A stretch of DNA of 64,000 nucleotides, taken from contig OZ038450.1 of the NCBI GenBank assembly GCA_964036195.1, forward strand, positions 13,952,701 to 14,016,700, written 5' to 3'. This DNA is from Sphaerolaimus hirsutus (lineage: Eukaryota; Nematoda; Chromadorea; Monhysterida; Sphaerolaimidae). Positions 1,871-64,000 of this stretch are shown here, in pieces (within the stretch, counting starts at the first letter, position 1; the number at the start of each line of letters is the position of its first letter). The notes beneath the pieces are model-generated. The model searched no databases. It was not told the origin of the DNA and saw nothing but the letters and a program-made list of their open reading frames with translations. The translations under genes and the position numbers were made by a program.

Positions 1871-2747
1871 CCCTGATCAACATTTTTCGTCAAAACGGAA
1901 ACAAGCGCGGCCCGACATCAAACATTTATTCACAGGAGACTAGTGATGAAAAATCGTCAGAAAAATGCGCAATGACACATCGACATATGGCACTAGCGTG
2001 TCAAAAAGTAGCCTTAAGCCAGGGCGACTAGGTAGCTGAAGATTGAATACGGCACCGACACCAAGGGCGCCTGGGAAAACGGGCCCATCACCCTCCGCAC
2101 CGTCCAAGGTCCAGCCCAGCACATTGTAAAATGGCAATTTGTAAAGTTTCAAGTAGAATGCAAAATGCCCCGTTAAAAAATTTGGTCAGACCTTTTACAT
2201 TACATGTGACAGATTTGCGTGGGACTTTATATTTTACAGGGCGCGAGGCTGGCTCGATTTTTTTTGTATTGAAATCACGCACACGAACTCAAGCAGAATG
2301 AATGGGTATTTATACTTTATTTACAACATCCAACATGTACCGTTGAAGAAATCTTTATGAAGTGTATATAATATTGAAAAATTAAGTGGAAAACATGGGC
2401 ATGGCGAGCAAACCACCTATGAAAGCTCTTTTTTGCAGGCTTGATTAAAAATGAGCAGTTCTCACTTCTCACCGTGGAATTCCATTGAAGTGCTACGCAG
2501 CTTTTAAGTTTTGAGTGCCCACAGATCAGTGCTAATGCGGGATAAAATGCCATAAACCACAACTCGCCAAACCCTGTCGCCACACATCAAGATGTATAAA
2601 TAGTACACGTGATCATAAATATGAGCAAAATAGGCGAAAAATGCGAATTTAACCAGTGCACAGGGTTCGCATTAGTTAACAATCCTGGATAATAGTTTAA
2701 AAAGTTTGGACACAAACGAAAAAAAGATGATATGATTTGGGGATGTA

Positions 2748-2955
2748 CCGGCCGTAAAGTAGACCCAGTCGTAAAGTACGCCTACCCGGCCGTAATCTAA
2801 ACCCGGCCGTAAAGTAAACCCGGCCGTAATGATGCCCGGCCGTAAAGTAGCACCCCCTACTTTACGGCCGGGTAGGCGGGCCGGGTTTACATTACGGCCG
2901 GGTAGGCGTACTTTACGACTGAGTCTACTTTACGGCCGGGTTTACTTTATGGCCG
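2748..2955. repeat. Palindrome of CCGGCCGTAAAGTA units
   Basis: Five or six units of CCGGCCGTAAAGTA(GACC) run on the top strand to about 2858. They are followed by the reverse complement TACTTTACGGCCGGG several times to about 2955, so the whole 200 bp can fold on itself. Confidence 0.7.
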
Positions 2956-3108
2956 AGATTTCGCCGATATAACACTTGTTCAGTTCAATAAGGAAACCCT
3001 GTCCAAGCGAAAGCTAAAGTGTTAAGAAAAAAAAAAACGGTTTAAAGGCATCATTATCAGCTGGACATCAGAGCTTCAATGTTAAGTTATGCATATATAT
3101 ATATAACT

Positions 3109-4320
3109 AAACTGGTGGAAAATATAAATGGAAAATTCACGAAATAACATTTTAAAAATCCCACAAGCAAGCTATCAGGCTGTCACTTAGTGTGAGGGTG
3201 CCCCCAAGTATCTACTATATATACCCGAGGGGGCACCCCCTCAGGCCACCCTTGCTGCTAAAAATATTTTTTTAGTGTTTTTTTCTGGCAAATATAAATG
3301 GAAAATCCATACAAATTTTTGTTCAGGCCAGAATTTGATTTATTTATAAAATTGGTTGGGGATGGTTTAGGCCACTGATTTTTTGGACATATGAGATGGT
3401 AACTTCCTGCAACTTTTCCACCCCCTCACAACCCACACAATCCCCACACCAAAATTTTGCCGAAGATCAAACCTGAAATATTTTTTTGAACAAAACATAG
3501 AGTGGAACTAATGTGTCTTACACAGCCCCAGGCTTATCATACAGCACATGGGGGCCAGGACTGGCTTCCTAAGTGTCATGAGCAACATGTGGCTGGCCCC
3601 GCACCACATTGTTGCATAAGTCTGCATTTGTGTCTATCAGTGAAAATATGACTGTTCAAAGACAGCATTTACGTAAAAGCGTGACCAGCTTCTGCTGCAT
3701 CTGGATGCAAATCATTAAATGCTAGTGCCCATTGAATACAAATGACAATTATCTGTGAAAGATATACCAGGGGACAACTGCCATTGTGTCTTGTAGTTTG
3801 TGTAAATGGGCAAGACAGATGAAGAGGTCATTCTCAGAAAGTGCAAATTTGTGGTTTTGCAATCACAATCAAAATTTTTGCACTTATAAAGTTCTCAATA
3901 TGTTTGAATGTTATGAAGTGGCTGATATCTGCAATTTGGGGTAGATTTTTGTGGGGCAGCAGCAGTGGGGGGACAGCAGCGAGTACAAATCACCCTGCAA
4001 CCTATGTGCGGCTCTGAGCAAGCCATTTGTGATTTTTTTCTATCAAAAAACTACCAGCACAAGCATATCCATTGCTTGTGTTGGCAGCATGCCAAAAAAA
4101 TGGCAGCGGGCTTACCCTCAGCAATATTCTGAGTGGGATTCCGAAATTTTCCATTTATATTTGCCAGAAAAAAATCGTTAAAAATATACGGAAGGCTGTA
4201 ACGGCAGACCAGGGCCCCACATTGACACAAAATTTTAGCAAAATTGGGCTGATAATTTGCACATGAGAATATTTTGAAAATTGATGTAGTCAATTTTCCA
4301 TTTATATGTTCCACCAGTTT
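3109..4320. repeat. Inverted-repeat element with AAACTGGTGGAA ends
   Basis: Left end AAACTGGTGGAAAATATAAA and right end TTTATATGTTCCACCAGTTT are inverted copies; flanking TATATA tracts extend the symmetry. No convincing ORF is present. A solitary copy of one end, TTCCACCAGTTTAGTTA, lies near 43133. Confidence 0.65.
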
Positions 4321-4531: not shown

Positions 4532-5370
4532 CAGAGTTGCGAAAGTGTATTTACACTTACCCGAAATACCCGGGTAAATGGGCATTTATATTTACACTTA
4601 CACTTACACTTTCATAAAATACCCATACACTACCGTATTTTTGATCTACAACCTTTGATCAGTGGCCAGTTCCGCAAGTGGAAAAGTTAAGAGTTAAAAC
4701 TTAAAAGTTGAGTAAAATGACAAATGACAAGTTATGAGTAAAGTTAAGAGTTAAGAGTTGAGTAAAACGACAAATGATTTTACCCAACTCTTATTTAACT
4801 TTTTACTTTACTCTTAACTTATCATTTATCATTTTACTCAACTCTCAAGTTTTAACTCTTAACTTTTCCACTTGCGGAACCGGCACCTGTACTCATGGTA
4901 TTCTACAGTTTCATCATACTTTTGTAAAAAGGACAAGATCAATGTAAGTTCACCAACTGGACACAAAGTCAACTTTTGCATTGACATTTGCTGCATGTCC
5001 ATTCTTGCATTTAAACAGTGTGTATCGCATTGCTTAATCAGTAAAATATCAACACTGAAAAACTGTCATTATTAGGGAACTTCATACCACTACAGTATTT
5101 GTTACAGTCTGAAATGTTTCATAAAAGGCTGTAAAATGTGAAATAATGCATGAAAATGATAAATAAATTGATCTAAAGGTGAGAGCGGTGTTTTCCAATG
5201 CTCAACAGTGAGAGCTCTTTCTAAATTTTTTTTTACACTTACACTTTTTTTACACTTTCCTAGGTATTTTTAAAATACCTTACACTTTTGGTATCCATAC
5301 TCAAAATTTGGAAAGTGTATTTACACTGACAGTTACACTTTCCAAAAATACCAGTATTTTAACAACTCTG
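4532..5370. mobile_element. Non-autonomous hAT-like element, CAGAGTTG ends
   Basis: Ends are CAGAGTTG and CAACTCTG, flanked on both sides by the exact 8 bp duplication GTCTACAG (4524-4531 and 5371-5378). Eight-base duplications and CAGNGNTG ends are typical of the hAT superfamily. The arms are AAGTGTATTTACACTT-like words. A MITE of another family (4664-4884) lies inside it. Confidence 0.85.
4664..4884. repeat. Palindromic MITE, GGCCAGTTCCGCAA family, nested
   Basis: GGCCAGTTCCGCAAGTGGAA at the left and CTTGCGGAACCGGC at the right, with AAGTTAAGAGTT words in one arm and AACTCTTAACTT in the other. It is inserted in the CAGAGTTG element. Confidence 0.7.
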
Positions 5371-24400: not shown

Positions 24401-27400
24401 TAAAATAAAATGGAAAATTTAAGAATAAAAATAAAAATTGTATAAAAATTCGAATTTTTGTAAAAAATTTGTAAAATTGTATAAAAATTCATATTTTTGT
24501 AAAATTGTATAAAAATTTACATTTTTTGTAAAATTTTCTCTCATTGCTTGTGTCTCTACCTGTTTATTCATGGATCTGGGGGCAGTCCCAAGCATTGTAA
24601 AGTGTCAAATGTCATGTTAAATGTCATGCAAATTGTCATGACAAATGTAAAGTAAAGTGTAAATTGTCATGACATGTAAAAATTAAAGTATAAATTGTCA
24701 AGCAAATTGTGTTCAAATCTCATGTTTTATTTCGAATTATTATGTTTTGTATCCAAATTATGTTGTTGTTGACTCCAAATCTTATGTGAACATTTGGATA
24801 CAAAAACATAATATTTGGATATAAAACATACTATGCATACAAAAACATAAGATTTGTATATCAATATCAAACATACTATGGATACAAAAACACTAGATTT
24901 GGATACACAATTTACACTTTGCATGACATTTGTCATAACAATTGCCACTTTGCTTGAAATTTTACATGACACTTGACATTTTGCATGACAATTGATACTT
25001 TACTTTACATTTGTCATGACAATTGACACATTGCGTGACATTTTACAAATGTGCCCAGCACACTCCAGTAGTCCTTCTACTGAAAATGCAAACCATTCTT
25101 ATCGATAATTGTATCTTTACACTTGCAGCTAGCTAACAATACATACCGCATGCAACTTTTGAAAAGTAAAGGGAAAAATTTTTCACATGTTTTTCATGTA
25201 TAGGTCTAATTATCACATTGTTCTGGCCTTGGACGCATGTTTGATTTTTTGTAAAATTTTTGTAAAGTTTTTGTAAAATTTTTGTAAAATGTGTCATTTT
25301 ATTTTATTAATCACTTTTGGGAATAAAATAAAATAAAATGAAACAAGAATAAAATAAAAATAAAATAAAATTTTTATACAATTTTTATACAATTTTACTA
25401 AAATGAATTTTTATAAAACCAACCCTGGTGCTGGCGACAACAAATCAGCGACTACCTCCGACAATAAGAAAAAAGTGTGATCTAGTGTGCATGAACACAC
25501 AATATATATAATTTTATGTTTGTCTTAGTCAGTGGGGCTGATCAAGTCATGATCGATTGAGGCTTCACACATGAAAAATATTTCATATGTATTGCACAAA
25601 AATGGCTGAAAACATTTTTGCCGTCACAGTCATCACAGTGTAAACGCTGCCTTAAACGGGTTCAAACGGGATTGACTTTTCGGGATCGGGATCGGGATTG
25701 GTTTTCTGAGATGTCGGGATCGGGATTGGCCGGGATTGGGGTCACGGGATCGGGATCGGGATTGGCCGGGATTGGGGTCACGGGATCGGGATCGGGATCG
25801 GGATTGGCATTTTTTCGGGATCGGGACTGGGGTCTTGGGATAGAGACTTTGGCCAATGTTTTGGCATCCACAGTTGTTCATAAAGGTCTAAAAACACTGT
25901 TGGATGCCAGAAACGTGGCATAAAATGAACGCTGGGGGTTTGCGTTCACATTTTTGCATGCAAAAACGTCGTTTTCTCACTTTTGATAATTTCCACTAAT
26001 TTTTCCGGGATAGGGATCCCGGACTTTGGAGTTTCTCGGGATCGGGATTTGAAAAGTTTCGGGATCGGGACTGCTAAATCCCGGAATTTCACGGGATCCG
26101 GGATCGGGATCCCGTTTGAACCCTACCCCCCCCCCCTAATCGGCCAGCTATCTACCTATCTGGAGCGATTTTTGAGAAACACGACCCCAATTTTCCTCAA
26201 AATAGCTATTTTTCATGACTTCAGATTTTCACCTCCAAAATGACTATTTCATGCGTCTAAATGCCTATTTTCAACTATTTTGAGTAGTATATGTGCTTAT
26301 ATACTCATTTTTCACCTAGTTTCAGCGATTTTTCGCCCTTTTCTTCCTTCTATGCCTATATATTGAACCCCCGCGAACCCCCCCCCCCCTCAGAAAATTT
26401 TTCAGCAATCTATTAGCGATTTGCTATCTATCCAACCCCCCAGAGGGTCGAAATATAGAATACCCCTGTGCGTACCTATAAAAAATCCTTGATTATTTGC
26501 CGTGACATTTTTGGCATGTTTGATAATTATTATTTTGCGTGTTGCATTCAAATTTACCATATCTCACCTGAAAGATGAACCAAATAGATCAACTATTTTT
26601 CAATCACAACAATGAAAGCAACAACCAATCCAGCCACCAATTCTGCAAATGGACAGGTAGAAACTCAAGCAATTTTTTTTATATTTACAGAAAATATAAA
26701 TTTTTATACAGTTTTACAAAAATACGGATTTTTATACAATTCTATTATGATTTATTATAAATATTCGTTGTTTTATACAATTTTCACTTTTATTTCGAAT
26801 TTTCCATTTTATTATACCGTATTTCCTCGAAATACCCCCCCCCCTCGAAATACCCCCCCCCCCTCGTTTGACCCCCCCCCTCTCGGGACCACTATGAAAC
26901 AATCACCCCCCCCCCTCGAAATACCCCCCCCCCAAATTGAGTGTAAAGGGAACGTACATGACATATACTGCAGTTTGTGTTCTGTGTACTGCAGAACACA
27001 CGTTAAAACAATGTCGGTGTCACGTTAGAACAGTGTACATACCATCTACATACTAATATTAGTCTACAGAACCTTATAAATGGCGGTTTTTGTTGCATTT
27101 TTCGACGTCTGCGTACGTTTCAGACGACTATTTCGTACTTGGTTTTCAAAAAATTTCTTGTGAAATAATAACCCCCCCCTCGAAATACCCACCCCCTCGT
27201 TTAACCCCCCCCCCCTCTCGGGACCACTATGAAACAATCACCCCCCGGGGGGTATTTCGAGGAAATACGGTATTATTATATTTTCCATTTTAAAAAAATT
27301 TCTGAGATTTTTCTAACCGTGCCCACGATCAACCGTGAAGTCGACCAAAAACATACATCCACGCTATGCCTAGTCTGATTCATCGAATGCAATTAATGCA

Positions 27401-30400: not shown

Positions 30401-33400
30401 GGGTCCAAATTCACTAAATATTCACATCACCGGGTATTGCTACTTAGCACCGGGTTTACTTGAGCATCTGTCCTCACTCGAATGTTCGAAACGTCACTGG
30501 CCAAAAAATGGAACATTATTCGTACCTGCAGATTGGGGCTTCCTATGTCTCCGAAACCGGACAAAGATAAGTCATTTCCGAATGTGGCAGCCCAGCTAGT
30601 GGGCACCGCAGTTGTTGTTACCACTGACGTCTGTCAATTGAACAGTTTAACCAGAACGATAAAAATATAGAAAGATAGAAAATATATTTAAAAATGATGC
30701 AAACAAGTGCCATGGCGCCCGCCAGCGAAAATCGGCATCCGAGGGAGTGTTCGAGGTTATGCGATATTGTGATTATTCAGTATTCAGTTCTATAAACTGC
30801 CAGTTTTTTTGCGACGGGCGCCAAAAAATCGTAGTGCTGCACCGAAAAACGACCTACCGTGTCGCCGGCAGAAATGGACCCAACCGAGGGCATGATCAGA
30901 CTGAGTCGCCCCTGGAGGCAATTCCAGACCCTGAAAAATTTCCTGTCAAATGTCAAATGTCATAAAAAGTGTCAAAAGTTATGTAACATGCCCTGGAAAA
31001 AACAAATGCACGTTTGCTTTTTTCCAGGGCATTTTACATGACTTCTGCCACTTTGCATGACATTTTACATTTTACCCGGCATTTTACAGTGTCCGGGACT
31101 GGCACCTGAGCCCCAACGGTCGAATGCGCGTGACTCTTGGGTCGCTTGTGCGGCGGCGGCGCGCCCGACTGCCGTCGTTGGTGGCGCGAGCCCGACACCA
31201 CGCTCGTGTGCGTGTGCAGGTGCTGCAGCGGCGAAACGGACGTGTTCATGGGCTGCGACGCGGCGGCGGCGGGCGAGTGCCCGTGCGGCACCGGCGTCGA
31301 CAGGCCCGACGAGTGCTCGCGGCCGGGCGAGCTGCCGCCCGCGCAGCCGGACGACATGAGCAGGTCGCCCGTCGGCGGGAACTGAGCGTGGGCGGGGGGG
31401 GGGGGGTACATAATATGTCAATTTTTCCAGCCAATGAATGTGCTTCCGCATACTTCCACGGTGTCAATTTACTGTCAATTTATTAGCCTTCTCTTATAAC
31501 ATTATTTAGACACTATTCCATGCCCAACTTCACTTGAAGTCAGGAACATTCGATGAAAGGCAAGATACATAACGAGTAGACTAAAAAGTAATATTTTTTG
31601 CAGAAATCGCCACTTGTAATGCTATTTATAACATCATAAAGCACTGCCACTTGTCTGATATATCTTTATATGTTGACTTCTACATAAATACATATATGGG
31701 AGCATTCAGAAGAAAAAATCGTTTTATTTAAAAAAGTTCTTTTAACAACCCAGACCATTGAGAGAAAAACGTCGTTTCTATGCTTTTTATTGGGACCACT
31801 GTAGAATACGGGAACCGTGACTGGGTGATCGGGACGTTTATCAGAGTTTTTTCTCGAAGGCGAGACTGAGGCGTCGGGACCGGGACCACTTCAGTTCCGG
31901 AAAAACCATGTACCGCGACAGTGGTCCCGTTTGAAGCCTAGACTGAAGCTCATGCGGGACAAAGAAAAATAGATAATTAACCCGGCAGGGACCCAACTGA
32001 CCCCCCCCCCCCCGTCCCCTTTCACCAACCAGGCCCAGGGGTATCTTGAATTTCGACCCTCTGGGTGGTTGGATAGATAGCAAATCGCATTGGGTAAACT
32101 TTCTCAAAAATCGCTCCGGCTAGGTAGATAGCTGGCCGATTTGGGGGGGTTAGGGGGTAGTAGCCCAGAACTTTGCCTCCGGGATAGATGGGCGGTTGGG
32201 GGGGGGTAACCCCCCCCCCATTCGAGACCCCTGTCACCAACCAATCTGGACAAGGGCTGGGCCAGCTGCGGCGGCGTGGATGTGGCGCCGGATCGGCCGG
32301 CGAGCTGCTGACCGAGCTCCACGTGCTGTTGCTGCGCTCGGAGCTGTTGATGCTGTTGGTGTTGCTGCTGCTGTTGCAGCTGATTGGCGGCGACTGCTGC
32401 CGCCGCGGTCAATATAGTCGCTGCCTAATGGATGATTCGAGATAAATTAACGAGAAAATGGAGCCGACAACTAGGGCGGTACGTCCTTGCGGTAAACAGT
32501 ACGTTACGGTATATTTCCTATTTTGCGGTAAACGGTACGGTAAATTTTCAATTTTGCGGCAAACGGTACGGTACGGTAAATTTTCAACTTTGCGGTAAAC
32601 GGCACGGTACAGTAAATTCTGCCAATCTACAGACAACCATCGTATCCAGCACCGTTGCCCAATACACGTTTAAAAAATTCACCCAACAAACCCTTTGAAT
32701 GCTGAGCGGATTCTCATTGACTGCGGCAGCGGTGATCCTGGCCAGAGGGTCTTCAAGCCCGGCGCTGGCCGTGTGCAGCTGCGGCCGATGCGCAGGTTCG
32801 CTTCCACACGGAGGGGTGGTTAAAGTTACTGTGGGCACGTATAATCTACCCTGACGTTCCAGCGCCGCTACCTGAGCGGGCAGGGAGGGGGGATTCCATG
32901 GGTGGGAAACGTGGGATCGATGGAAAAATATTCAACATTTTTAAAGAGAAAATTATTTAAATATTTTTTTATTTATTTAGATCTGAATTTTCGCCGCGAA
33001 AATGGATGTAACGAGACATCATTGCACGATACTATCAAGTTATCCGCACACGTCCTAAAATTCTTTTTAAAAAACCCAAAAGTGATCCATGTCCTATTCG
33101 CAAAGCACAGAATCAAAGGTCACAAAGTTCGACTAACAAAGACTCATTACCGCCGACAAAGATCGACCGAAGGTCAGTGAACGCAAACGAACCTGCGCCA
33201 AATTGCCCAGCGGCGACTGCTCAGCGACCGCCGGAAATCGTTGCAAACCGGTGCCGGTGTCGACGCCGAGCGCGCTCCGGCCGAGGATGTTCTCGGGCAC
33301 GACGGGCAGCACGGGCAGGGCGACCAGCTGCGCCGCCGGGTTGCCGGAACCGACGTGGCTGCCGGCCGAGTTGTCGCCGGCGATGAGACCCGCTCGCCGC

Positions 33401-42619: not shown

Positions 42620-43522
42620 ACCTGTATTACGGCTTATTATTAAAGACTAGCGTGAAAAATGTCAGCTTCGACGCTAAAAATGCCACAAAATCAATAATAA
42701 CAACCATTTAAGTTTGGCAAGTGATTTTTTATAAATAATCTCAGCAACTGATCCGATTTTTTTATTAATCGCAAATTTTTTTAGTACTTATGCAGTAGGT
42801 AAAATGCAAAAATTTCGCACGCAAATGCCGTAGTTTCATGCATGACATAAATAACAGGATTTCTTGTTTTTGACGCAAAGTTGGTGGTTTTAGCGAGTGT
42901 CGTAAGCCATGTATCATTGGGGAAGTATACATATACTCGGCGGACATTACACTTAGTATGGAAACCTACTATAACCCATCTGAATATAAACCAACATTTT
43001 TACAGTTTTTCATTATACCTTTTTGTTTTTACTATTGAATAAATAATTATAAATTTTATCACAAGATTTTATTCATCAAATTATGGTAGGATTCTTGCAT
43101 ACTTTGTGGTCCGCCAAGTTCCCCATTTTTATGTTCCACCAGTTTAGTTATGTAGTGTTGTCCTACTAAACATTAATGCAAATACCATCATGTTCACTTC
43201 CAAAATGTTCTCAGCGAATTTCTACCAACAAAATTGCAAATAGTCGATGGAATGTTATTCACGCAGCAAAAATAACAAACCGAACATTTTTAACAAGAGT
43301 ACATCGGCATAAGATAAATTTATATTGCTTTTAGTTTTCACACAGGTGATTTCGAAGAAAAATAAGACTCGGCAGAGTACAGAGAAAAGATCTGCTTTTT
43401 CAAACCACCGGTCAATTTGTGTGAAATTGAACCCTACCCCAGAACTACCTACTGAAAAGATCTTACAATTACCCACATTAAAAAGTTAGAAACAAGCGAT
43501 TCCAGCCTGAAAACCGCACCAG

Positions 43523-43675
43523 GGTCTAGTTCCGCAAAATGAGAAGTGAAATGGCAAAGACAAAGTAAAACGGCAAAAGCGAAGGGAAATTAATCACATT
43601 TTTTACTTCGCTTTTGCCTATCCACTTGCCGTTTCACTTCGCCTCACACTTCACTTCTCATTTTGTGAAACTGGC
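43523..43675. repeat. Palindromic MITE, GGCCAGTTCCGCAA family
   Basis: It runs from CTAGTTCCGCAAAATGAGAA to TTCTCATTTTGTGAAACTGG, with AGTGAAATGGCAAA words inside. Confidence 0.65.
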
Positions 43676-44420
43676 AGCTGGTAAGTCACAGGGCAACCAA
43701 GAGAAGAACCCTAAGAAACAACCACTCACCAAATTAGCGCTAGTGAGCTGCAACACCCCAGGAGAAGCTCGACTCTGCGATCATCAAAACGTAATTGTGA
43801 ATGATTTTCTCGCAGTCTGCTCTCGCACACTTTACAATAAAATCTACCGTATCGGATCTGAATAAAGAATCGAAACTTTTGGTTTTCTCACCATATTTCA
43901 CTTCTGTCGGTGAATTTGACGCATGATTTTCCTGTGACTTTGATTAAATTGACAATTCAATTGAATTTAAAATTGTACTCGATTTAAAATTAAGACACGG
44001 AATTTGATTATTATACCTACTAAATTACACATTAAGAGGATTGTTTTATTATTTGAAAAATTGGAAGGTGGAGAGGTATATCGATAGATATTTTAAAAAC
44101 CATCGACATTTTTGCGAATGGTCATCATGCGAAGATCAAAATGCAGTACACCCTTCATTACGGAGAAAAAATAAAACGCATTGATCTTAGTCTCACAGGC
44201 AACTGCCAGAACAGTAAGGAACGACGTCTCATTCCAGAAATGAGGAAAGATCCATTGAAAAACGACAACTCACAACGCCAACTGGGATCTCATTTTACCG
44301 CATCGAATCAAATCGAACGTGCTGATATGGTATTATACCACAAATTACTGGCGACAGCATAACCAGAAATGTCCACCTACGTAAATACCATGCGATTTCT
44401 ATTTAGTATTTAGTCCCAGG

Positions 44421-44564
44421 GGCCAATTCCCCAATTGGCGAAGTACTTTACTCATCAATTTACTTATAACTTTCCGTTTATCATTTTAGGTACTTTATGT
44501 TTAACTTTACTCTTTAGTCTTGACTTTCGTTTTTACTCATTACTTTGCCACTTGCGGAACTGGC
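44421..44564. repeat. Palindromic MITE, GGCCAGTTCCGCAA family
   Basis: GGCCAATTCCCCAATTGGCG at the left, CACTTGCGGAACTGGC at the right. Confidence 0.6.
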
Positions 44565-44573
44565 ACTGAGGAG

Positions 44574-54300: not shown

Positions 54301-57085
54301 ATAGGTGTAAAGTATGCCCGCCATCCCATCTTTTTTTCAACTTTTTTTCAAAAAGAAATTGTAAGCCCTGAATAAAACAGAGAAAAAATTAGTGTCAAGC
54401 GACCTGAGTAAAAAACCAACCTTCATGTGGGCCAACTGAGACTGTTCCCAGTTGTAGCGCTTCATTTGATTCTCCAGCAACTCGATACGCGTTTTTATGA
54501 ATGTGTCGTAGTTTCCCTGCGGAATGTTGATAAGGATCGCATAAAAATATCAAAAATGAGGTTAGGAAAAAATTAAAACCCTGGGAAAACTCACGCCATA
54601 ATACGTCAGGCGCTGCTTGTCCAAGTGCACAATGTTTGTGCAGACGCCATTCATGAAATCTTGTGAATGCGACACTACAACCAATATTCTAGTGTAGCTG
54701 CGATAAGATGGGAATAGTTAAGGTGATTATTTCACAGTCCACACAATTCGTGAATTCAAAAAATAGACGAAAAAAATTAGCCGTGAAATAAAATCAGATT
54801 AGCAGGTTTCATACCCTGATCCCAGCGGGGCAGGCCTGATACGCACATCTGCCCGTTACGCACATTTGCCCGTTTTTTTCACTTGACACTTTTTCAATTG
54901 ATTTTCAGATATGAGTAAAGTAAAAAAAGTTGCGCAATGACATTAGTGAACTTTTTACACTTCACTCATATCTGAAAATCACTTAAAAAAGTGTCAAGTG
55001 AAAAAAACGGGCAAATGTGCGTAACGGACAGATGTGCGTATCAGTGCACCCCCATCCAAGCGGGATATCAAACCGGACAGCGGTATAGATTTTTACCTAA
55101 ATATGTACAAAAGTATCAAAATGATCGAAAAAACGCAGTCCAAACAGAAAAACTCGAACACCACCAAAAAAACCCTCACTTTCTCAGTTCTCCCTCCAGC
55201 CAAACACAGGCGTCCAAATCCAAGTGATTGGTAGGCTCATCAAGCAACAGGATGCTGGGCTTGAGATACAGCGCTCTGGGGGCAGTCTCAGACCCTGCAA
55301 AATGCCCTGTAAATGTCAAATGTGATGCAAAGTGTCAAAAGTCATGGAAAGTGCCCTGCAAATAGGCAACTCGGTTGCCATTTTGCAAGGCATGTTACAT
55401 GACTTTTGACACTTTGCATGACAGTTGACATTTTACAGGGCAGTTTACAGGGTCTGGGATTGGCACCTGGCCAAGGCTATGCGCATGCGCCAGCCGCCGC
55501 TAAAGTCCCTGCACGCCTTGTGCATCATGGCGTGCGTGAAGCCCAAACCGTGCAGAATGTTGGCCGCGCGAGCTTCCGCTGTGGATGCGTCCATTTCGTC
55601 CAGACGAGAGTAGATATCGATGAGGCGCTCGTGCGATTCTGGGGGTTGAGTATAGTTTTTGGTGAGTGGAGAAAATTTTGGAGAAAAAAATGTTGATACT
55701 GAAAGTACGTGGTACCTTTGAATTTTAACCTACCACGTTGTATTTATCAGAGCGATAAAATGATGAAAAATTCGCCGAAAAATTCGGCCGATTAACAGCA
55801 ACTTTGCTTTAAATGCGTTCTACTTGACGGAAATGAGCCAATTTTGGCACCAGAGAGTTGTTGCTGGAGGCCAAAGATGATGCATATCCGCCATGTATCT
55901 AAACTCGTTGACAAACGTAATTTTCAGTTGACATCTAATCCAGTGTCAACCAGTGCGCGTACCCAGTCCACCCAAAAAACACCTTCATCCTGGGCGAGCG
56001 CCAAATGCTCCGCTTCCGCTTCCAGCTGTTTCCGTTCCAAATCCACGTCGATGACGGCCTGCAGCGCCGACTTCTTGATGGCCGGCGCCTCGTGCGACAA
56101 CAGAAACATGTCAAAGTGGTCGGGAATGGGCAATTCTTTGCGCGAGATTGCCTGGAGGAGCGTCGATTTGCCTGCGAAAGTGTCACGCGGGAACTGGGGG
56201 GAGACTACACTGTAAAAATGAGTAGTGATCAAATACATGGCGTCTCACAAAGTGCACGCTAGCCCTCCCCCCGACGGCCCCCCCTATAAATTTTCCGATG
56301 CCAATTGCGACTCCGATCGGCCCGAGCTTTTCAAACATAGAAAAATCAATGTCTTTTAAAAAATAGCAAAACGACAAAAAAACACATACCAACCCTAACC
56401 CGCAAAAAAGCGCATTCGAAATCCCGGAAACAAACCTGACCCGTTCAATCCGACCAATCCATATCTCCTACCCCAATTCAACTCGATCTTAGCGTCGCGC
56501 ACAATCTCGCTTCCATAAAACGTGATCGTGACCGATTCCAATTTCAAGTCTCTCGCTTCCCGGTGGGAAGCAAGAACGCCGGCGACTGCGCGCGCCGCCG
56601 CATTTTGAATTTCCGTTTCCGCTAGTTGCGCAGTGACTGCATCCACGTCAGGGGAGACGGTCACTGTTGTGGAGGGTGACATTTGGGTTACTAAACGACT
56701 TCAAAATTATTGATTGATCTATGTTGGCCACGATTTCGACTAATTTTCTCTTCACAGGGCTACAACCCCGCGGCAATTTACCTGTATAATGTAAAAAATT
56801 ACCTGCGGTTTGTATGGGCTTCAGTCACTACCACAACCTCTCAAACACTGAAAGTCAATGATGCCCAACTTCACTTGAAAAATTCACGAAATAAAAACCA
56901 TTCCAAACCACACCACCAGCCACGCCATTCTGCACGGCGTGTTCCAAAACGACAGGATCGTCAGCGAGATCGTCATTGTCGACCGCGTCGTCAAGATTTT
57001 CCGCTTTGACGTTGCGCTGTTTGCCGCGCTGCTTGGCTGCCTCCTTTTTCTTCCTATCTCGCTCTTTCTTCGCGTCCGAAGGCAT
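48170..57085 (-). CDS. ABCF2: ABC-F family ATPase ABCF2, 12 exons
   Basis: Twelve exons join in phase to about 645 residues, close to the usual length. The N-terminus [20 protein letters not shown] is a basic, coiled-coil-like tail. NBD1 has Walker A GLNGSGKST (split by an intron), signature [14 protein letters not shown], Walker [13 protein letters not shown] and switch VSHSQDF. The linker reads [11 protein letters not shown] and [13 protein letters not shown]2 has [33 protein letters not shown] and [12 protein letters not shown] proteins lack membrane segments; the yeast orthologue Arb1 acts in ribosome biogenesis, so a ribosome-associated role is likely. The ATG at 57085 is the first in frame and gives the family start MPSD. 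The exon 1 donor is uncertain (56917, 56914 or 56899). Confidence 0.93.
48625..48759 (-). CDS. ABCF2: ABCF2 exon 11, Walker B of NBD2
   Basis: Acceptor CGCGCAG, donor CAACAG|GTAAAT. It encodes [19 protein letters not shown] and [15 protein letters not shown]. Confidence 0.95.
48918..49290. repeat. Two adjacent palindromes in ABCF2 intron 10
   Basis: 48918-49114 pairs GCAGTTGACCGAGCAGTCAA with TGACTGCTCGGTCAACTGC. 49115-49290 is made of CGCACATAAACCCGGCA words and their inverse TATGTGCGTGCCGGG. Confidence 0.7.
49377..49574 (-). CDS. ABCF2: ABCF2 exon 10, NBD2 signature
   Basis: Acceptor AATTCAG, donor GGCAG|GTTCGT. It encodes [31 protein letters not shown] and [17 protein letters not shown]. 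Confidence 0.95.
49800..49973 (-). CDS. ABCF2: ABCF2 exon 9, Walker A of NBD2
   Basis: Acceptor ACTTCAG, donor CACCAG|GTGAGG. It encodes [32 protein letters not shown] and [13 protein letters not shown]. Confidence 0.95.
50085..50216. repeat. Degenerate CGGGAT-family MITE
   Basis: CGGGATTTGTGTTCCCGATC near 50088 and AATCCCGTTTGAACCCTA ending near 50219, much reduced, in ABCF2 intron 8. Confidence 0.55.
50247..50456 (-). CDS. ABCF2: ABCF2 exon 8
   Basis: Acceptor AACGCAG, donor GAGTCG|GTCAGT. It encodes [40 protein letters not shown] and [18 protein letters not shown]. Confidence 0.93.
51161..52205. mobile_element. Third layer: hAT-like CAGGGCCGTATCC element
   Basis: Ends CAGGGCCGTATCCAGG and CCTGGATACGTCCCTG, exact duplication CCAGTGAT (51153-51160 and 52206-52213). 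It carries G/C-runs and GCGCCA words and is split by 51489-52109. Confidence 0.9.
51489..52109. mobile_element. Innermost layer: CGGGAT-word hAT-like MITE (copy 3)
   Basis: Ends TAGGGTTCAAACGGGAT and ATCCCGTTTGAACCCTA, exact duplication CCACTATG (51481-51488 and 52110-52117). Long tandem GGGATC words on both arms; same central sequence as 9987-10514. Confidence 0.93.
53495..54219. mobile_element. hAT-like MITE with CGATAT-word arms (copy 1)
   Basis: Ends TAGGGTTCAAACGATATGAC and ATATCGTTTGAACCCTA, exact duplication CGACAATG (53487-53494 and 54220-54227). The arms are ATATCGATATTCGATATT words; the centre (about 53660-54080) is near-identical to the copy at 60959. Confidence 0.93.
54421..54516 (-). 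CDS. ABCF2: ABCF2 exon 7, linker helix
   Basis: Acceptor TTCCGCAG, donor ATGAAG|GTTGGT. It encodes [17 protein letters not shown] and [15 protein letters not shown]. Confidence 0.92.
54595..54697 (-). CDS. ABCF2: ABCF2 exon 6
   Basis: Acceptor TATCGCAG, donor GGC|GTGAGT. It encodes [19 protein letters not shown] and [13 protein letters not shown]. Confidence 0.92.
54826..55053. repeat. Palindrome with GATACGCACATCTG ends
   Basis: CTGATACGCACATCTGCCCG at the left, CAGATGTGCGTATCAG at the right, with a CAATTGATTTTCAGATATGA stem inside. The CGCACAT word links it to 38421-39150 and 49115-49290. In ABCF2 intron 5. Confidence 0.65.
55180..55275 (-). CDS. ABCF2: ABCF2 exon 5, Walker B of NBD1
   Basis: It encodes [19 protein letters not shown] and [11 protein letters not shown], ending AAA|GTGAGG, phase 2. 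Confidence 0.93.
55276..55466 (-). mobile_element. Introner-like intron B (intron 4 of ABCF2)
   Basis: The 191 bp intron reads, on the sense strand, GTGCCAATCCCAGACCCTGT to GGTCTGAGACTGCCCCCAG. It folds as one hairpin whose arms carry TGTCATGCAAAGTGTCAAAA and TTTTGACACTTTGCATCACA. It is full-length related to the intron 30912-31105 of the TFCP2-like gene. Confidence 0.75.
55467..55638 (-). CDS. ABCF2: ABCF2 exon 4, NBD1 signature
   Basis: Acceptor CCCCCAG, donor GGCCAG|GTGCCA, phase 2. It encodes [30 protein letters not shown] and [13 protein letters not shown]. Confidence 0.93.
55983..56171 (-). CDS. ABCF2: ABCF2 exon 3
   Basis: Acceptor TTTCGCAG, donor GAAG|GTGTTT. It begins [20 protein letters not shown] and ends [11 protein letters not shown]. 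Confidence 0.92.
56436..56690 (-). CDS. ABCF2: ABCF2 exon 2
   Basis: Acceptor CGTTTAG, donor GTCAG|GTTTGT, phase 1. It encodes [36 protein letters not shown] and [11 protein letters not shown], entering Walker A. Confidence 0.9.
56917..57085 (-). CDS. ABCF2: ABCF2 exon 1
   Basis: It begins [20 protein letters not shown] and has an acidic stretch ([10 protein letters not shown]). Several phase-1 GT donors lie at 56899-56917; the exact end is undecided. Confidence 0.75.
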
Positions 57086-63245: not shown

Positions 63246-64000
63246 TAACATTGGTAGGACGGATTTCTGGACCAAGGTTGGCAAAATCTCAGGAAAAAAT
63301 AAAAATAAAATAAAAATAAAATGGAATATTCAAGAATAAAATAAAATAAAATAAAATGGAAAATTTAAGAATAAAAATAAAAATTGTATAAAAAATCGAA
63401 TTTTTGTAAAATTTTTGTAAAATTGTATAAAAATTCATATTTTTGTAAAATTTTATCTCATTGCTTCAGTCTCTACCTGTTTATTCATGGATCTGGGGGC
63501 AGTCCCAAGCATTGTAAAGTGTCAAATGTCATGTAAAATGTCATGCAAAGTGTCAATTGTCATGACAAATGTTAAGTAAAGTGTAAAATTGTCATGGCAT
63601 GTAAGTATCAATTGTCAAGCAAATTGTGTTCAAATCTCATGTTTTATTTTGAAATCTTATGTTTTGTATCCAAATTATGTTGTTGTTGACTCCAAATCTT
63701 ATGTGAACATTTGGATACAAAAAGATAAGATTTGGATATAAAACATACTATGGATACAAAAACATAAGATTTGGATACACAATTTACACTTTGCATGACA
63801 TTTTTCTAACAATTGCCACTTTGCTTGAAATTTTACATGACACTTGACATTTTGCATGACAATTGATACTTTACTTTACATTTGTCATGACAATTGACAC
63901 TTTGCATGACATTTTACAAATGTGCCCAGCACACTCCAGTAGTCCTTCTACTGAAAATGCAAACCATTATTATCAATAATCGTAACTTTACACTTGCAGC
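63246..64000. other. 3' flank of the DPY19-like gene and truncated hAT-like element
   Basis: Twenty-six bases after the stop, a second AAAATA-arm element begins at about 63272 (AAGGTTGGCAAAATCTCAGG) and runs to the window end. It repeats the order of 24327-25427, including the GGGGGCAGTCCCAAGC palindrome at 63493. Confidence 0.75.

Follow-up and report, generated by a model that had tools for sequence, protein, structure and literature searches.

The window, by which we mean the whole stretch of 64,000 nucleotides analysed here, comes from the nematode Sphaerolaimus hirsutus and carries on its minus strand a TFCP2-like gene and the gene for ABCF2. The intron of the TFCP2-like gene at 30912..31105 starts with GTGCCAGTCCCGG and ends with TGCCTCCAG, and the ABCF2 intron at 55276..55466 starts with GTGCCAATCCCAG and ends with CTGCCCCCAG. 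The original prediction placed both introns at these positions, where we found them, and took them for full-length relatives. The end-to-end alignment that it had asked for bears this out (blastn, 197 bp, 80.2% identity, E 4e-46). It also described several hairpins inside the introns. Hairpin folding is indeed present, but each intron forms one long palindrome, with self-folding z values of -10.0 for the TFCP2-like intron and -15.7 for the ABCF2 intron, and none of 200 shuffles folded as well (DNA energies).

Each of these introns consists of an element together with one copy of a three-base target, all on the minus strand. In the TFCP2-like gene the element has 191 bp in sense orientation (GTGCC...GCCTC) and occupies 30915..31105; its bounds were set by the target duplications seen at 80 paired ends and its length by an oriented copy, L001. 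The 5′ target copy, CAG at 31106..31108, is the end of the upstream exon, while the 3′ copy, CAG at 30912..30914, would supply the acceptor AG; both were placed by sequence and by the paired-end duplications. The element in the ABCF2 intron has 188 bp (55279..55466; C1:14007976-14008169 in the genome listing, target copies included) and lies, by sequence, between a 5′ CAG at 55467..55469 and a 3′ CAG at 55276..55278, the latter again the predicted source of the acceptor AG.

How secure are the two gene models? For ABCF2, tblastn with the human protein and a junction model delimit homology-matched exon stretches at 55467..55630 upstream and 55182..55275 downstream, also on the minus strand. With the intron removed, the conserved ABC signature continues in frame into the downstream peptide, in phase 2, and we regard this predicted intron and its gene model as firm. 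Among the best 120 of 5112 matches in a protein search with ABCF2, the species-named entries in the first 81 rows are all nematode, with identities of 62-74% (mostly 69-74%), and arthropods rank next with 67-70%. GT-AG models are possible for the remaining ABCF2 introns under a junction script that permitted GT/GC-AG only, with two junctions at about 54.4-54.6 kb poorly anchored; the ends of these introns look unrelated to the element. The TFCP2-like intron has GT..AG ends and lies upstream of same-strand CP2-domain exons, and the frame is open across it with a neutral codon score (-0.3). No protein homology spanning this junction was found, and as a gene model the predicted intron is less firm than that of ABCF2.

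A Palindromic Element Present in More than a Thousand Copies

The genome searched comprises 348,482,957 bp in 762 contigs. One of them, C762, carries COX1 at 1905-3239 with 14 in-frame TGA codons and is probably mitochondrial.

With the TFCP2-like intron as query, 2767 first-look candidates were obtained. Forty candidates, the window's own included, were scored; they are about 180-200 bp long, and the other 39 are 81-87% identical to the query in their better orientation. The pattern CWGGKGCCARTCYCAGACCCTG, which represents one end of the element, has 2266 exact matches genome-wide, and its reversed control has none. Requiring two ends at equal strictness yields 1133 asymmetric copies, 44 symmetric copies of the form GGGG...CCCC and 16 symmetric copies of the form GTGC...GCAC, and the form that multiplied is therefore the one with the donor GT at a single end. 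The genome-wide search that had been proposed for the family thus showed it to have more than a thousand members in this genome.

The consensus, built from 51 copies of 184-196 bp out of 74 oriented ones, has 192 nt and is self-complementary except within the outermost four bases; these read GTGC on the 5′ side and CCCC on the 3′ side. Divergence of the 51 copies from it has a median of 6.4% and a range of 3.1-37.5%. The element is short, has inverted repeats, duplicates its target and is present in high copy number, as is expected of a MITE.

Stem changes that are double, that is, compensated in both arms, number 114 against the 51-copy consensus, where about 25 are expected. This excess may come from selection on the hairpin, from arm-to-arm exchange, or from subfamilies, and we do not count it as evidence. 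A second subfamily (CCCAAGCCCTGTAAAGTGTAAAGTAAAG...) is also seen among the first 100 places of a genome-wide listing of strict copies; several of its members, on different chromosomes, have identical first 80 bases, which suggests recent activity.

Other palindromes occur in the window. Palindromes of a second family, which have related ends (GCCAGTTCCGCAA...) and CWG triplets at their flanks, are seen at 1634-1875, where CTG stands on both sides, and at 4660-4889, 43520-43680 and 44417-44569, each with CAG on one side and CTG on the other; they are possibly another introner family. A decayed copy of this second family at 1345-1541 on the minus strand ends with GCGGAACTGGCCCAG, and an ankyrin-like reading frame (MAELNPTEYLRAINAQGDTPLHIAARNDQL) follows immediately; the copy may supply the acceptor of this putative exon. 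A longer palindromic relative has two copies, at 24573-25067 and 63490-63939, both belonging to a single larger repeat that is duplicated; the left-hand triplet is CTG and the right-hand one CAG.

Insertion at CWG with a Three-Base Duplication

The flanking triplets were compared at 80 paired ends drawn from 77 loci, overlapping loci being counted once. Loci L009-L047 had been chosen by likeness to the TFCP2-like intron, and L048-L077 were the first 30 places of the pattern listing. We observed CTG/CTG in 26 pairs, CAG/CAG in 24, CTG/CAG in seven and CAG/CTG in one, and the other 22 of the 80 are without CWG on both sides; some pairs are off-size (124-413 bp), and a few are perhaps spurious. 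An orientation could be assigned to 74 of the 80 by a simple rule (a TG start without a CA end, or the reverse). Turned to sense, these give CAG/CAG 31, CTG/CTG 16, CTG/CAG 6, CAG/CTG 1 and other 20.

The same was found genome-wide under a strict pattern (left GTGCCARTC, right GAYTGCCCC, CWG required on both sides), which admits exact-end copies only. In sense orientation there are 449 copies with CAG/CAG, 305 with CTG/CTG, 164 with CTG/CAG and 59 with CAG/CTG, and the reversed controls gave none. Matching triplets are present in 754 of these 977 copies (p 6e-68 against one half). The element inserts at CWG and duplicates three bases of its target.

This duplication changes how the ends of the two introns are to be understood. 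According to the original prediction, the element carried its own GT and AG, and its ends, read with the CAG included, were inverted repeats. The ends are inverted repeats and the donor GT is borne by the element, but the outer CAG on both sides is the target duplication and lies outside the repeat, and the acceptor AG consequently belongs to the duplicated target. A hAT-type element whose inverted repeat starts with CAG was also considered and rejected: the window copies show no 8-bp duplication by eye, and the matching CWG triplets are themselves the duplication. The idea of a duplication-free insertion at adjoining CWG triplets, taken from a few old window copies, is ruled out by the genome-wide proportion of matching triplets.

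Reading Frames and Domains across the Insertions

What do the flanks of the element encode when the element and one target copy are taken out? Each flank was scored by codon usage, with a table of 855 codons from window genes and with the best of six frames chosen separately for each flank. The 53 copies tested are those of the CAG/CAG, CTG/CTG and CTG/CAG classes, out of the 74 oriented copies, which include the TFCP2-like intron from the same window that supplied the codon table. With flanks of 90 nt, the two sides share their best frame in 26 of 53 copies, against one and three when the joint is shifted by 1 or 2 nt. Agreement is 23 of 53 at 60 nt (three and six shifted) and 30 of 53 at 120 nt (eight and two shifted).

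By class, the 90-nt agreement is 15 of 31 for CAG/CAG (one and two shifted), 7 of 16 for CTG/CTG (none and one) and 4 of 6 for CTG/CAG (none in either shift); at 120 nt the CTG/CTG class is weaker, with 5 of 16 against three and two. For the 27 of 53 copies without agreement at 90 nt, an intergenic position, an exon that is too short or a score that is too weak may be offered as explanations. In the 21 copies outside the main classes, one agrees unshifted and eight and six agree shifted; their ends were probably misplaced by one base or altered by small indels, and they are no test of the model.

Orientation is also constrained. The best joint frame is the sense frame in 53 of 74 copies, and at the junctions scoring above 8, a cut-off that we set for strongly coding ones, the GT is on the 5′ side of the gene in 19 of 20.

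The second level of comparison was that of protein domains, for which ten junction peptides were scanned against Pfam. Locus L041 (CTG/CTG) matches adh_short over residues 64-122 with the junction after residue 92, so that 59 residues fit 59 positions, with some 30 of them to either side of the junction. In L015 (CTG/CTG) the P4-ATPase C-terminal domain extends over residues 21-105 with the junction after 70 (85 residues on 80 positions), and in L043 (CAG/CAG) a leucine zipper extends over residues 27-132, again with the junction after 70 (106 on 106). The remaining matches are less informative at the junction: the Patched and sterol-sensing matches of L039 (CTG/CTG) pass it by only 3 and 5 residues, the LRR repeats of L056 (CAG/CAG) lie mainly downstream, and the match of L016 (CTG/CAG) is below threshold and beside the junction. 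Four of the ten peptides, those of L036, L034, L057 and L055, have no Pfam match.

In parts of PMC9860276, introners are recognised as introns of unrelated genes that are similar up to both exon boundaries. This kind of similarity is seen in the ABCF2 and TFCP2-like introns and in L043 and L056. That the genome holds at least four such introns is indicated by the restored frame in 26 of 53 copies and by protein evidence at ABCF2, L015, L041 and L043, with weaker evidence at L039 and L056; we infer this count from DNA and not from annotated introns. The CAG-flanked copies, for example that of ABCF2, have by sequence the GT donor and AG acceptor of a U2-type GT-AG intron.

Classification and the Transposase

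We consider the two introns to be copies of an introner, a non-autonomous DNA transposon (MITE) which is PIF/Harbinger-like (PHIS, NuwaI-type) by its target site, inserts at CWG and duplicates three bases; the probability of this reading is, by our estimate, about 90%. That an element created both introns had been suggested from their likeness, and it is supported by more than a thousand relatives, by the three-base duplication and by the frames that precise removal restores. A sense insertion in an exon at CAG would produce CAG^GTGCC...GCCCCCAG^, where ^ marks an intron end. The element would provide the donor GT and the duplicated target the acceptor AG, and splicing would remove the insertion and leave the mRNA unchanged.

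The affiliation proposed here is to NuwaI, described in parts of PMC4482050 as a group of the PHIS (PIF/Harbinger-like) superfamily with a CWG target duplication and with inverted repeats that usually begin with GGG. The CWG duplication is that of the 754 matching copies. Read inward, the 3′ end of the element is GGGG, and its 5′ end is GTGC; by the NuwaI rule, the GGGG end would be the ancestral one.

Candidates for a source of transposase are numerous, since PF13359, the PIF/Harbinger-type transposase domain, has at least 163 matches in the genome (150 of 306 candidates scored). Many of these matches are near-equal in score, with a 633-bp match interrupted by about four TGA stops, which would suggest that each such gene carries an intron. 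In the two PF13359 genes examined, L078 and L079, no combination of a transposase with introner termini was found, and both were rejected as the autonomous partner. The PHIS-type transposase gene L079 does contain a relative of the introner at L079:924-1115 (192 bp, between a left-hand CTG and a right-hand CAG), while the related L078 reads through. When the flanks in L079 are joined, the peptide matches L078 across the site (35% identity, E 4e-27), with alignment gaps adjoining the junction. This supports, and does not prove, the view that the introner entered a transposase gene as an apparent intron.

Copies Flanked by CTG

The CTG-flanked copies, which did not figure in the original prediction, lie outside the GT-AG rule, because the end of the element offers TG there and not AG. 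The CTG/CTG copies nevertheless interrupt conserved domains as well, and precise removal at these sites needs a GT...TG intron. In human genes, according to parts of PMC2374985, TG acceptors work only as alternatives near an AG and constitutive ones were not found, so that constitutive TG acceptors in an animal would be a surprise.

It may be, then, that the introners are real but that their CTG copies are not GT...TG introns, being instead part-exonised through internal GT..AG pairs, or located in damaged genes, or unfixed as insertions. We give this explanation little short of an even chance. The human data favour it, as does the weaker CTG/CTG frame signal at 120 nt, and each of the five CTG/CTG copies examined has 4 to 12 internal GT..AG combinations that are in frame and free of stops. 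However, these combinations insert, delete or replace residues at the junction, which leaves either GT...TG introns or proteins that differ there, whereas precise removal in L041 gives the gap-free adh_short match. Recent, unfixed insertions also agree poorly with the divergence from the consensus, the mean of which is 6.1% for CTG/CTG (n=7) and 6.9% for CAG/CAG (n=24); the former are thus not visibly younger.

The mismatched duplications bear on the same question. There are 164 CTG/CAG against 59 CAG/CTG copies (p 1e-12, a value too small by some amount, since duplicate genome places were kept in), and the 74 oriented copies show a bias in the same direction, with 6 against 1. Eight of the 59 CAG/CTG places are on contig C9 at 24.96-25.76 Mb, and close pairs are also present in the listed part of the CTG/CAG places (100 of 164). 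The distribution looks as if selection repaired TG acceptors toward a 3′ CAG. Since the GT orientation is kept in coding copies and the mismatches lean in this direction, splicing at the element's own ends is favoured.

An insertion at CTG would then make a GT...TG intron, apparently tolerated in a number of genes, and its 3′ target copy would be preferentially mutated from CTG to CAG. Our proposal, which we put forward at somewhat less than even odds, is that CTG insertions of the palindromic introner gave rise to many, perhaps hundreds of, constitutive GT...TG introns. The hairpin would join the two ends so that the spliceosome accepts TG, selection would afterwards change TG to AG, and the birth and the repair of introns would be visible as separate stages.

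Other Explanations

The main reading, that of an introner inserting at CWG, has further competitors. An ordinary MITE that landed by chance in pre-existing introns is one, and the 27 of 53 main-class copies without frame agreement, many of which may lie outside exons, are in its favour. It is nonetheless very improbable, because the ends of the ABCF2 element are both splice ends, because removal of the element with exactly one target copy restores the frame (26 of 53 against one and three) and the domains, and because 19 of 20 strongly coding junctions are sense-oriented.

Still less credible is the excision of exonic copies from DNA, in the manner of the internal eliminated sequences of ciliates and without splicing of RNA. 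Precise removal does seem to be needed at the CTG/CTG sites, where no terminal AG is present. Yet such excision is indifferent to GT and AG, and the GT is on the 5′ side of the gene in all but one of the 20 coding copies; the lean of mismatches toward a 3′ CAG would also be left unexplained.

Reverse splicing of intron RNA, the proposed origin of fungal introner-like elements, accords with exonic copies that are whole introns, but we judge it the least probable of all in view of the CWG duplication in 754 of 977 strict copies, a palindrome that spans the full length, and CTG-flanked copies that end without AG.

Comparison with Known Systems

Introners are a leading explanation for bursts of intron gain, and few have been reported in animals. 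They were reportedly also the subject of work by Huff et al. in 2016. With more than a thousand strict copies in a nematode, the present family offers an animal system in which the birth of introns can be followed. Its CWG target suits the making of introns, as CAG serves well at the end of an exon and also as an acceptor. The copies at CTG are a natural experiment, with the same element and the same insertion but one acceptor base changed, and they let one ask: How far does the spliceosome tolerate TG, and how fast does selection correct it?

As parts of Gozashti et al. (2022, PMC9860276) describe it, introners among animals and land plants were found in two groups only, both of them animal, copepods being named. 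In parts of a study of 104 nematodes, Ma et al. (2022, PMC9169325) report that 168 new Caenorhabditis introns could not be traced to a source sequence. No nematode introner was found in the literature searched, which consisted of the titles and abstract openings listed, with subscription papers mostly outside it.

The element resembles the introners of Symbiodinium, Micromonas, Aureococcus, Chrysochromulina and others, presented in parts of PMC9860276 as intron-making DNA elements, many of them with inverted repeats and/or target duplications. As in some of those families, the element contains one splice site and the duplicated target provides the other, and the introns are alike from end to end. 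In contrast to the introners described in those parts, here the acceptor would be supplied by a 3-bp CWG duplication, the consensus is self-complementary nearly throughout, and the host is a nematode.

With NuwaI, as far as parts of PMC4482050 describe it, the element shares the CWG duplication, and the GGG start of the NuwaI inverted repeats resembles its 3′ end (GGGG inward). It differs in its 5′ end, GTGC, and in its host, since the NuwaI hosts given there are bony fish, beetle, crustacean, mollusc and anthozoan, and not nematodes.

Animal introns whose 3′ ends depart from the GT-AG rule are also described for Fritillaria borealis, where, according to parts of PMC13326754, canonical introns make up 5%, the commonest other forms are AG/AC and AG/AT, the borders are known from long RNA reads, and introner transposons with weak splice sites are named as a possible source. 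Unlike in Fritillaria, the other ABCF2 introns could be modelled as GT-AG, and the form proposed here, predicted from DNA, is GT...TG. In human genes, too, TG can replace AG as the last two bases of a U2-type intron; in parts of PMC2374985 such acceptors occur only near an AG, whereas in the copies described here TG would be the sole acceptor at the end of the element.
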